From Minisyncoccota bacterium (GTDB taxonomy: Bacteria > Patescibacteriota > Minisyncoccia > UBA6257 > 02-FULL-45-10c), in the NCBI GenBank assembly GCA_028715395.1, contig JAQURY010000006.1:1-37046 (forward strand): a stretch of 37,046 nt of DNA, in the 5' to 3' direction. Every line of letters starts with the position of its first letter. Position 1 is the first letter of the stretch. Under the pieces are notes generated by a model, which ran no database searches, had not been told where the DNA came from, and saw only the letters and a program-made list of their open reading frames with translations. Shown here in pieces: positions 26,530-33,290 of this stretch. Made by a program: the position numbers and the translations under genes.

Positions 26530-27264
26530 TTACTCCAATTCCGCTTCGGCTTCAATAAACTTATCCAAATCTCCCTCCAAAACTTTATCCGGCTGGCTGC
26601 TTTCTTTTTTTGTTCTGTGGTCTTTTACCATTTTATACGGATGAAGAACATAAGAACGGATCTGATTTCCCCATTCCGGCTTAACTTTCACCCTCAAATC
26701 GGAAAGCTCCTGTTTTTGATGCTGAATCATCAGCGCCACCAGCTTTGATTTCAAAATTCTCAGGGCTTTTTCCCTGTTTTGGACCTGCGAACGCTCTGTT
26801 TGGCTGGCCGCGGTTACTCCGGTCGGCAAATGGACAACCCTGACGGCACTTTCAACCTTTTGGACATTCTGTCCGCCCGGTCCGCTGGAACGGAAAGTTT
26901 CAATTTTCAAATCTTTTTCCGGTATCATGAACTTTTGGTGTTCAATATCCGGCAAAATCGGCACCACTTCAATCAATGCGAAAGATGTGTGCCTTAATTT
27001 TTTAGAATCAAAAGGGGAAATTCTCACAAGGCGATGAACTCCCGATTCTTTTTTTAAAGTCCCATAGGTATATTCCCCCCGAATTTCAATCGCCAAGTCA
27101 TCAACAATAGAAACTTTCCAGCCGCGCTTAATCGCGTATTTTATATACATATTCAAAAGCATCCGCGCCCAATCCTTTGCGTCATCTCCGCCCACTCCGG
27201 GATAAACACTTAAATGCGCGGACTCTTTGTCGTATTTTCCATCTAAAGGCTTAAATAAATCCAT
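26530..27264 (-). CDS. prfB: Peptide chain release factor 2, short form lacking N-terminal domain
   Basis: VYPGVGGDDAKDWARMLLNMY, ISPFDSKKLRHTSFA (SPF), FRSSGPGGQNVQKVESAVRVVHLPTGV (GGQ); 244 aa. Confidence 0.92.
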   Translation of the reverse strand: MDLFKPLDGKYDKESAHLSVYPGVGGDDAKDWARMLLNMYIKYAIKRGWKVSIVDDLAIEIRGEYTYGTLKKESGVHRLVRISPFDSKKLRHTSFALIEVVPILPDIEHQKFMIPEKDLKIETFRSSGPGGQNVQKVESAVRVVHLPTGVTAASQTERSQVQNREKALRILKSKLVALMIQHQKQELSDLRVKVKPEWGNQIRSYVLHPYKMVKDHRTKKESSQPDKVLEGDLDKFIEAEAELE

Positions 27265-30349: not shown

Positions 30350-30415
30350 TAAAGTACGAAATCTTGGATATTTTATCTAAGATAAAAAGATCTTTAAAAA
30401 AGGAGGTGAAATAAA

Positions 30416-30577
30416 ATGAGAGAGTTTGTCAAACTTCTCAAAACAACGGGTATAACCCACACAAGAGAAGTTCGCGGTTTCTCTCCCCAGGCCCAAGGCG
30501 ATTGCGATTGCGTATGTGACAATTGCGAAGGCGGATGGGGAGCGTGCGAATGCAACTGCGACTGTGGCGACAAATGA
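30416..30577 (+). CDS. 53-aa Cys-rich peptide, putative RiPP precursor (not in ORF track)
   Basis: ATG at 30416 with perfect SD AGGAGGTGA (30401-30409), TGA stop at 30575-30577: MREFVKLLKTTGITHTREVRGFSPQAQGDCDCVCDNCEGGWGACECNCDCGDK; eight Cys in the last 24 residues; followed by terminator. Confidence 0.88.
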   Translation: MREFVKLLKTTGITHTREVRGFSPQAQGDCDCVCDNCEGGWGACECNCDCGDK

Positions 30578-30601
30578 GGACGTTCGCCACCTAAGGTCGG
30601 T

Positions 30602-30645
30602 AGCCCCTTGCGATATTTTTTATAATGTAGCGGGGGCTTTTTTTA
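30602..30645 (+). terminator. Intrinsic terminator after peptide gene
   Basis: AGCCCC...GGGGCT followed by TTTTTTT. Confidence 0.75.
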
Positions 30646-30678
30646 TTTCAATTTTACTTGAAAATTCAAGTTTTGCGA

Positions 30679-31332
30679 TCAATGTATTATAGTAGGTGTA
30701 TTTTCAGGAGAAATATCAGCAACTTTTTCTATTATTAAAGATAAATTGGGATAATATTCTTTAAAAATTGCATCTGTGGCAAGAGCCCAGTCGGGTACAG
30801 GCTGCATTTTGAAACGCGATTTAAATTCAAAATCCATTATCAAATCCACTACACGTTCCTTAATCCAGTGTCCAACTGAATATTTTTTAATCATGTTTTC
30901 AATCATCAGATGAAAAGACTCATGTATAACAATCTTAATTAAGTATTCAGGAGGAATATTAGAAATATTTATAATTATAAAATTAGGTACCGTATAACTT
31001 CCCTGAGTTCCATATTTAGTAAGAATTACATTTATTTCATCCAATGCAAAAGAACCGCTCATCTTCTGATTGATTTTTTTCATTAAATCGCTATTTCCTT
31101 CCCACGATTTTACAATGGCTTTTTCGGCAGTCTGATAGATTTCCAAATTATATTCATTTTCCACTAATTTTCTAATTATTTCTATATCTGTGTTTTTTAG
31201 ATCTTTTATGCCATTTGGCAGAAGAAATCTATATTTGTTTTTATTAAGCCAATCTAAGTTGTCTAGAGTATTTTTTACTCTACGTACCTCAGATTCAATA
31301 TTAAATTGAAATTTTATGGGTATAACAATCAT
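30679..31332 (-). CDS. HExxH putative zinc metallopeptidase
   Basis: IVIHESFHLMIENMIKKYSVGHWIKERVVDL: HExxH plus downstream Glu (gluzincin-like). Start placed at internal Met (31332) because the track start at 31389 lies in a terminator hairpin. Confidence 0.7.
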   Translation of the reverse strand: MIVIPIKFQFNIESEVRRVKNTLDNLDWLNKNKYRFLLPNGIKDLKNTDIEIIRKLVENEYNLEIYQTAEKAIVKSWEGNSDLMKKINQKMSGSFALDEINVILTKYGTQGSYTVPNFIIINISNIPPEYLIKIVIHESFHLMIENMIKKYSVGHWIKERVVDLIMDFEFKSRFKMQPVPDWALATDAIFKEYYPNLSLIIEKVADISPENTPTIIH

Positions 31333-31368
31333 AATTACGGTAATAATAACATTATTTTTGATATAAAC

Positions 31369-31400
31369 AAAAAAAATCCTCTGACACATGCCAGAGGATT
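31369..31400 (-). terminator. Intrinsic terminator after radical SAM gene
   Basis: Minus: AATCCTCTG gcatgtgt CAGAGGATTTTTTTTG. Confidence 0.8.
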
Positions 31401-31419
31401 TATTGTGGCTACCTGAACG

Positions 31420-32454
31420 CTACCATCCCTTAATTATGCTATCGGGCTGGTATACCGTCCACAATAACAGACAGCCGCCTGAACAATTCTCAAAAACTTC
31501 ACAGCTAATGCACTTCTTGGAAGGATATGCTTTTGCTTGAGCAAAATAATTTTTCATTTGTTCTGATTCGAAAAAGGCTGCTAGCGACTCAGCAGAATTA
31601 AAATCCTGCCCATATTTGCCAACAGGAAAACCAGACATACTGTTGCAAATCAATAGCGAGCCATCTGTGTCAATAATGCCCCCCGATTGATGCTGAAGGT
31701 GGCATGTAGTTGAAATTTGGCCTCTATTCTTCAGAGTTTGAATAAACTCTTTAGGCCAAATACAAAGCGGATGCTTCATAACAAACACAAGATGTCCGCC
31801 TGTAATTTTGTGCGCCTCCTCATACGCAGACATTATTTCTTTGACCAATACATCAATGTCAACCATAAATTTGTCATCCACATGATCCTTGTGTATGGCC
31901 GGAGAACAAAAGTTAACAGATACGCCGAATGCTCCGCAATCCATCGCATACTTAACCATATCCAAAAAATGAGACGTGTATGGCTGCGAATATACGAAGC
32001 TGGCTATACTTTTGGGTTGATATTTGAACACTCTCCGAAGACTCTTTGTAACATCGTTAAATCCAGTAGACTTTGTATTCTCAACTAAGCTTTCTGGATC
32101 AAATGCCTTAAATGAAGCTCCGATGTTGGTGTTCGGATGTTTCAAATACTCCTCCCAGAATTTGTCGCTTGAGAACCTGTATGTATTGGTCACAAGCGTC
32201 GAACGAATTCCGGAAGATTTCATTGCGTCGTTAAAATCAAATAAGTGAGGCCAGAGAGTTGGTTCGCCCCCTATTAAAAACAATCTCTTGATCTCAAGCT
32301 GTTTCGCGATTTTGAGAAGATCAAGGGTGAACGACAAGGACATCTCGTCCTCTGTCCGATACTCACTTCCTGCCGCATAGCACCATTCGCAACGAAAATT
32401 ACAGCCACGGTTAACGGTTAGCCACATCAAATTCATCTTGGGAATCTTGCTCAT
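31420..32454 (-). CDS. Radical SAM protein with SPASM-type C-terminal cysteines
   Basis: NRGCNFRCEWCY (CxxxCxxC), FLIGGEPTLW, CX13GX4C (CHLQHQSGGIIDTDGSLLIC) and CX2CX5CX3C (CISCEVFENCSGGC); strong SD GAGGAGGAT. Confidence 0.95.
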   Translation of the reverse strand: MSKIPKMNLMWLTVNRGCNFRCEWCYAAGSEYRTEDEMSLSFTLDLLKIAKQLEIKRLFLIGGEPTLWPHLFDFNDAMKSSGIRSTLVTNTYRFSSDKFWEEYLKHPNTNIGASFKAFDPESLVENTKSTGFNDVTKSLRRVFKYQPKSIASFVYSQPYTSHFLDMVKYAMDCGAFGVSVNFCSPAIHKDHVDDKFMVDIDVLVKEIMSAYEEAHKITGGHLVFVMKHPLCIWPKEFIQTLKNRGQISTTCHLQHQSGGIIDTDGSLLICNSMSGFPVGKYGQDFNSAESLAAFFESEQMKNYFAQAKAYPSKKCISCEVFENCSGGCLLLWTVYQPDSIIKGW

Positions 32455-32537: not shown

Positions 32538-32570
32538 AATATGAAACATTTTAACCCAGAAGTCAAGCTA
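32538..32570 (-). promoter_or_regulatory. Promoter of radical SAM gene
   Basis: Minus strand TAGCTTGACTTCTGGGTTAAAATGTTTCATATT; same architecture as 30118-30150. Confidence 0.6.
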
Positions 32571-32645: not shown

Positions 32646-33290
32646 TCACTTAAATCCCGCATTAATCCCTATCATAACCGGAAGCACTCCGTTCTTTCTT
32701 ACAACATTAATCAATCCTATTTGCACGCCCTTGAGCGTCTCGGCATAATTATAAAGCCCAAGCTGAACTCCATAGGCCTCGCGAGTTATATTAACACAAC
32801 CAAAAGAAATTCCGTAAAGCTTGTCTGTCTTTGCATAAAATCCGGTATACAGAACGCCCCGAAGCTCTTTGGTGCAGCCGTAGATTCCGCTTATTTGAAC
32901 ACCGACAGTTTTGTCGGCATATCCCACCTCTCCAAACTGTATTCCCGTATAGGTTCCTACATTTGAAACCATCGTCATAACCAAACCGTAGCCCTTCTCA
33001 ATTTTCACATAGCCCAGGGCATACTGAAAACCGTAAGCGTTTTTAGCTTTTGCGTAACACACGGCATACTGGCAGATATAGCTATATTCCGCTTCGCATA
33101 CCAGGCCAGCCTGTGCCCCAATTACTGACCTTGATCTTGTGAGAATTAATCCGATGTCCGCGCCGATAACATTTGCAGAACTGTTAAATAAAGCTACCGG
33201 CGGAATTACGGATATTTTCAAAGGGGTGGTTAAAGCAAAAGCCATTTGAAACAAAAACACGCTGCATAAACAAATAAGCAATCTTTTCAT
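32646..33290 (-). CDS. Exported protein with ~20-aa Gly-x-Gln-x-Gly beta repeats (LA_2272-like surface repeat)
   Basis: Signal peptide; repeated GAQAGL / GIQFGEV / GVQISGI / GISFGCVN / GVQLGLYN / GVQIGLINV. Confidence 0.75.
   Translation of the reverse strand: MKRLLICLCSVFLFQMAFALTTPLKISVIPPVALFNSSANVIGADIGLILTRSRSVIGAQAGLVCEAEYSYICQYAVCYAKAKNAYGFQYALGYVKIEKGYGLVMTMVSNVGTYTGIQFGEVGYADKTVGVQISGIYGCTKELRGVLYTGFYAKTDKLYGISFGCVNITREAYGVQLGLYNYAETLKGVQIGLINVVRKNGVLPVMIGINAGFK

Follow-up and report, generated by a model that had tools for sequence, protein, structure and literature searches.

Does a short, Cys-rich open reading frame (ORF) beside a radical SAM gene in a small (715 kb) genome of Patescibacteria encode the precursor of a modified peptide, and would its neighbours mature it? 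The window, which is the whole stretch of 37,046 nucleotides analysed here, had received an initial annotation in which a 53-residue peptide, a SPASM-type radical SAM enzyme and an HExxH protein encoded between them were proposed to form a peptide-maturation system. Linkage of these genes in the loci of the enzyme family, conservation of the peptide and the linkage of a protease across loci all speak for this proposal. We consider it likely that the three genes constitute a RiPP pathway, with a precursor composed of a leader (residues 1-28) and a core (residues 29-53), modification of the core by the SPASM enzyme and removal of the leader by the HExxH peptidase.

The peptide gene and its closest relatives

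The ORF translates into MREFVKLLKTTGITHTREVRGFSPQAQGDCDCVCDNCEGGWGACECNCDCGDK. As had been described, residues 1-29 are free of Cys and eight Cys follow, at positions 30, 32, 34, 37, 44, 46, 48 and 50. The core is Cys-rich and acidic, and we infer that it is separated from the leader at residues 28/29. The expression signals that had been assigned to the gene stand in part: the Shine-Dalgarno site is strong and the terminator is plausible but unexceptional (stem z -1.56), whereas the promoter (TTGACT-17-TATTAC) is poor and falls under the scan threshold. The features of the locus are collected in Table 1.

Table 1. Positions of the genes, motifs and signals of the cassette in the window
Feature	Position	Strand	Basis or remark
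Shine-Dalgarno site AAGGAGGTGA of the precursor gene	30400..30409	+	sequence
Putative precursor peptide gene	30416..30577	+	53 aa, 8 Cys; homologs in L017, L018, L019; purifying selection
Predicted leader, residues 1-28, with TTGI...GFSPQ	30416..30499	+	Cys-free in the window; signature common to other loci
Predicted core, residues 29-53, DCDCxxxNCxGGWGACECNCDC	30500..30574	+	7 Cys conserved in L017, L018, L019
Probable intrinsic terminator of the precursor gene	30602..30645	+	stem 30602-30638 and T-run
HExxH zinc peptidase (predicted)	30679..31332	-	217 aa from probable start; longer ORF to 31389
Terminator-like hairpin between radical SAM and peptidase genes	31374..31401	-	sequence scan
Putative radical SAM/SPASM peptide maturase, 344 aa	31420..32454	-	Pfam, NCBIfam, family A10, AlphaFold, Foldseek
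SPASM region, Cys 231, 251, 270, 315, 318, 324, 328	31471..31764	-	canonical last Cys missing
CX3CX2C radical SAM cluster motif, residues 18-25	32380..32403	-	invariant across 39 family members
Promoter-like site of the radical SAM gene, TTGACT-17-CATATT	32538..32566	-	consensus match only

The enzymes closest to that of the window are found in loci L017 (80%), L018 (78%) and L019 (69%), where the place and strand of the precursor with respect to the enzyme match those in the window. Loss of the peptide or of its Cys in related genomes had been named beforehand as an unfavourable sign; these three precursors instead read GDCDCxxxNCxGGWGACECNCDC and retain seven of the eight Cys, Cys34 of the window core being the one that is not kept in all of them. 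Codon comparison of the window precursor with these three homologs gave a pN of 0.06-0.13 and a pS of 0.67-0.90 for the core, and a pN of 0.21-0.32 and a pS of 0.65-0.86 for the leader. That pN is low relative to pS, and lowest in the core, indicates that the peptide gene is coding and is under purifying selection, which is tighter on the core than on the leader. In the clade of the window, the precursor is convergent with the enzyme operon and lies outside it; the gap to the enzyme gene, put at about 0.85 kb in the initial annotation, is 843 nt.

Linkage of peptide and enzyme across genomes

A scan of GTDB species genomes yielded 46 loci, numbered L017-L062. A few of these (L058-L061) are distant and two (L054, L057) are fragments; one contig binned as viral (L063) was added. 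Relatives of the enzyme reside on about 45 other contigs, from Patescibacteria including Saccharibacteria, from gut Bacillota and from one member of the Verrucomicrobiota. Within the phylum, the enzyme was found (E 1e-15 or better) in 8 of the 380 genomes sampled, one of them the window's own, and an alignment-based second search of the same 380 genomes added nothing. Among 17 genomes of the host's family, including one of the same genus, neither the enzyme nor the peptide gene was found except in the window itself. In the sampled genus and family the host thus stands alone with both genes, and the cassette is, by sequence search, patchy in distribution. No copy of the peptide was found in viral contigs and none of the enzyme in phage records. 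When the same-genus genome was searched for an empty site, the flanking Lnt-like gene was not found, and the GC profile has no clear island border. Elsewhere in the window (26530-27264), the release factor 2 gene encodes 244 aa and lacks the greater part of N-terminal domain 1; its upstream region shows no extension, either in frame or by frameshift.

To count precursors, we defined them strictly as ORFs of at most 90 aa with a Shine-Dalgarno site and at least 4 Cys in the last 35 residues, lying outside larger ORFs. Such an ORF occurs at most 1.2 kb from the enzyme in 23 of 42 family loci, at a density of 0.253 per kb near the enzyme against 0.0094 per kb elsewhere in the same loci, which is a 27-fold enrichment. 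The 57 control loci, which have radical SAM proteins of other kinds, gave none; most of them are viral contigs that contain related copies, so that the independent cases are fewer than 57. Reading by eye with looser demands raised the number of loci with a short Cys-bearing ORF beside the enzyme to 40 of 42, the extra cases counting for less because they were found through looking for them. Homologs of the enzyme are therefore consistently accompanied by a nearby Cys-rich peptide, which is the co-occurrence that the initial annotation had singled out for checking. In most of the other loci the peptide starts about 0-45 nt downstream of the stop codon of the enzyme, and the order enzyme, peptide, peptidase is usual across many Patescibacteria and Saccharibacteria.

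The leaders share a signature of about [ST]TG[IV]xPxxxPxG (TTGIxPxxxPxG), which is strongest in Patescibacteria and degenerate elsewhere, and which recurs among loci whose enzymes are only 26-42% identical. A motif of the TG/SG type lies within the first 22 residues of 23 of 42 peptides. Among the features expected of a RiPP locus, we found a modifying enzyme linked to its precursor across genomes, an encoded precursor whose leader and core are under selection, and the gene of a putative leader protease, which is common though not universal in RiPPs; a dedicated gene for transport or immunity is not conserved among the family loci.

In 42 peptides, the core consists of 26% Cys, 15% Asp and 13% Gly, where the boundary was set at the first Cys, so that the contrast in composition between leader and core is partly by construction. 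There is a strong preference for a second Cys at position +2 (0.48, z 9.4) and for Asp, Glu or Asn right before a Cys, whereas two Cys in a row are avoided. Across the family the cores hold 2 to 20 Cys and vary in length, with Cys as the one constant and few aromatic residues. The peptides of L038 and L049 are very short. At the other end, precursors with 20 and 15 core Cys are encoded in L034 (11010-11330, Christensenellaceae) and L044 (10998-11280, Pumilibacter), and are built of repeated CHCNxYGECDC-like or CDCxC units. In the Lachnospiraceae loci L035 (247-846), L036 and L062, a DUF4760 membrane protein is encoded upstream and the precursor ends in CGACGACGACGGR-like repeats.

The SPASM enzyme and the peptidase

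The enzyme matches Pfam Radical_SAM (E 6e-17) and exceeds the cut-off of the SPASM model TIGR04085. The SPASM consensus reported for its C-terminus is indeed present, with the spacing C251-X13-G265-X4-C270 and C315-X2-C318-X5-C324-X3-C328. The more specific NCBIfam radical SAM models, among the matches listed, all score far under their own cut-offs. Alignment of 39 members showed that the CX3CX2C motif and Cys 251, 270, 315, 318, 324 and 328 are present in all, and Cys 231 in 38. The usual last SPASM Cys is absent from the window enzyme and from most members of this alignment; Saccharibacteria and a few other members have a Cys near that position. It has been described (PMC8326336) that the auxiliary cluster of ranthipeptide and sactipeptide synthases has a free site and can bind substrate, while those of SuiB, PqqE and anSME are fully ligated. 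Read together with this description, the absent ligand would lean indirectly towards thioether chemistry, although Cys 231 might itself serve as a ligand.

The AlphaFold model of the enzyme (pLDDT 93) was matched best by Foldseek to SuiB with its precursor peptide and to anSME with a peptide, and at lower ranks to ChlB with a leader and to SkfB. As the SAM barrel starts at residue 9 of the model, there is no room for an N-terminal RRE domain. No PqqD was found in the host genome, and an RRE-like fold could conceivably be hidden within the peptidase. Just upstream of the enzyme gene, the window encodes a surface repeat protein of the LA_2272 type (32646-33290).

Between peptide and enzyme, as had been noted, an HExxH protein is encoded, with the motif VIHESFHLM (HExxH at about 30910-30924) and a conserved Glu at about 30856-30858. 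Its homologs begin with MIVIPIKF-like sequences, which places the true start probably at 31332 and excludes the hydrophobic stretch upstream from the protein. The peptidase appears to be cytosolic. A fold search with its AlphaFold model (pLDDT 89) gave no significant PDB match and only a weak likeness to M1 gluzincins, and Pfam has no family for it or for the types of HExxH protein in the other loci.

HExxH proteins adjoin the enzyme in 20 of 42 loci and form three BLAST clusters and one singleton; their genes lie mostly about 150-300 nt past the enzyme, just after the peptide. Types 1-3 have a conserved Glu beyond the HExxH motif, as in gluzincins, and profile comparison by hhalign relates types 1 and 3 (95% probability) and, weakly, types 1 and 2 (52%). 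With M16 and S9 peptidases included, the enzyme has a peptidase next to it in 22 of 42 loci. In the enzyme tree, a tight clade (100/100) unites L020, L023 and L026, yet the protease encoded at the same place differs: an HExxH protein in L020, an M16 peptidase in L023 and an S9 prolyl oligopeptidase in L026. That unrelated proteases are swapped at one position argues for proteolysis, presumably of the leader, as the job of these proteins, and is the best evidence for it here. The Bacillota members L033-L036, L039, L040, L044 and L062 have no HExxH gene at the position read.

The protease gene often follows shortly after a hairpin resembling an intrinsic terminator and lacks a clear Shine-Dalgarno site (window 31332-31401; L024 3440-3508; L026 11200-11270; L041 11240-11305; L046 8420-8455), as if it were transcribed separately as a leaderless mRNA.

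What the pathway would make, and for whom

We propose that the 53-residue peptide would be made as a precursor with its leader in residues 1-28 and its Cys-rich, acidic core in residues 29-53. The RRE-less SPASM enzyme would bind the leader and modify the core, most likely through thioether links between Cys sulfurs and residues nearby, and the HExxH peptidase would then cut the leader off. The place of the cut between leader and core, the type of crosslink and the substrate of the peptidase are our reading of the locus. For the modification itself, thioether bonds are the option to which we give a modest preference. Asp or Glu residues beside the Cys had been suggested as ranthipeptide-type acceptors; the PapB spacing CX3(D/E) has single instances in the window core but does not hold as a family rule, as Asp or Glu at +4 is not enriched in 42 peptides (0.16, z -1.7).

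Among known systems, ranthipeptides (PapB/freyrasin, CteB/SCIFF) resemble the cassette in combining a SPASM enzyme with a Cys-rich precursor that has an N-terminal leader. Of the NCBIfam models, PapB matches the window enzyme best over its full length, yet at 53.9 bits against a cut-off of 340. Unlike ranthipeptide systems, the window enzyme has no N-terminal RRE, CX3D/E is not enriched, and a peptidase is part of the cassette. The Cys spacing had been noted as no obvious match to SCIFF, and neither the window peptide nor 28 relatives match the SCIFF precursor models. The only NCBIfam precursor model touched was FibroRumin (TIGR04135), also a Cys-rich RiPP modified by a radical SAM enzyme, but by 1 of 29 peptides at an E of 0.041, which is not significant, and with no FibroRumin maturase model among the enzyme matches listed. 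SuiB, which makes streptide from SuiA, is the closest solved fold and has a SPASM domain, and the SuiA leader sits in the SuiB active site rather than in the RRE (PMC8326336); it differs from the window enzyme in having an RRE, in making a C-C bond and in its fully ligated auxiliary clusters, at about 17% identity. Nearest in the literature that we found are the graspetide loci of the candidate phyla radiation, branches 1 and 2 of which have two types of zincin peptidase and in some cases a SPASM enzyme (PMC8939145). These are likewise RiPP loci with zincins, but they have ATP-grasp ligases and Thr/Asp cores and the window locus has no ATP-grasp gene.

SuiB, the top fold match, is a C-C cyclase, the known thioether spacing rule is unseen, and Saccharibacteria members keep the last SPASM Cys. 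A RiPP pathway with another modification, in which the enzyme would epimerize residues, form C-C or C-O bonds or alter the Cys itself, is thus a minor possibility, against which stand Cys as the sole constant of the cores, the variation of the other residues and the scarcity of aromatics. More improbable is a cofactor pathway like those of PQQ or mycofactocin, in which the precursor would act as the scaffold of a small redox cofactor: a few of its residues would be modified and a piece excised while the rest is discarded. This would agree with the missing conserved transporter or immunity gene, the apparently cytosolic peptidase and the M16 peptidase of L023, M16 being the family of PqqF. The host genome is nevertheless without PqqD, and cores that range so widely in Cys number and length, together with a cassette so patchy among the sampled genomes of the phylum, suit a released product rather than a cofactor.

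The initial annotation had itself raised the alternative of a metallothionein-like metal binder with coincidental neighbours; such a peptide would work without covalent modification, and the neighbours might instead serve metal handling. The CxC-rich, acidic core is what such a protein would look like, but the linkage of the peptide to the enzyme family across phyla, its conserved leader with few Cys and the peptidases found at one position leave this alternative very little probability, and we set it aside. Least credible of all is an enzyme akin to anSME whose substrate is a larger protein, the peptide being a bystander. Although anSME is among the nearest folds, the window enzyme does not score as an anaerobic sulfatase maturase, clustering with which had been named as adverse (34.7 bits against a cut-off of 349.45), its linkage to the peptide is constant, and no sulfatase was noticed beside it in the loci read.

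The three-gene RiPP pathway is the reading that we retain. Weighing against it are the wide variation of the cores, the lack of a conserved transporter or immunity gene, the PapB spacing that is not enriched, the missing HExxH gene in Bacillota and the convergent placement of the precursor in the window's clade. Neither NCBIfam nor Pfam has a model that names the enzyme family, the peptide or the HExxH protein, and no description of the cassette was found in the open-access literature, most subscription work and preprints lying outside this scope. We take the cassette for a real and apparently undescribed RiPP family that would work like known radical SAM RiPP systems. As its short precursor genes are easily overlooked in annotation and NCBIfam has no model for enzyme family or peptide, genome mining in its present form probably passes the family over. 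Some forty precursors, whose cores vary naturally, offer material for enzyme chemistry. Other maturation genes were seen near the cassette: in L017 (12242-15480) and L024 (4314-6880) there is a second, different SPASM enzyme of 435-486 aa, accompanied by a Cys-rich peptide of its own (CDCYDCxYNCEECD) and by further HExxH proteins, and L018 (3706-5954) and L024 (7220-8194) encode MvdC/MvdD-like ATP-grasp peptide maturases, one of them beside another HExxH protein. It may be that RiPP loci of more than one type cluster in such genomes.

Patescibacteria have small genomes, few secreted molecules of theirs are known and their dealings with hosts are open. A compact, recurring cassette for peptide modification would give a defined, testable product. 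Our likeliest guess is that this product is released and used towards the host cell or competitors. It is possible, though doubtful, that the family forms a RiPP class of its own, found in Patescibacteria, gut Bacillota and other bacteria. Its SPASM enzyme, lacking an RRE, would then lay a new pattern of crosslinks on alternating D/E/N-C-x-C ladders, leader proteases would be interchangeable, and in Patescibacteria the product would let reduced, host-dependent cells act on other cells.
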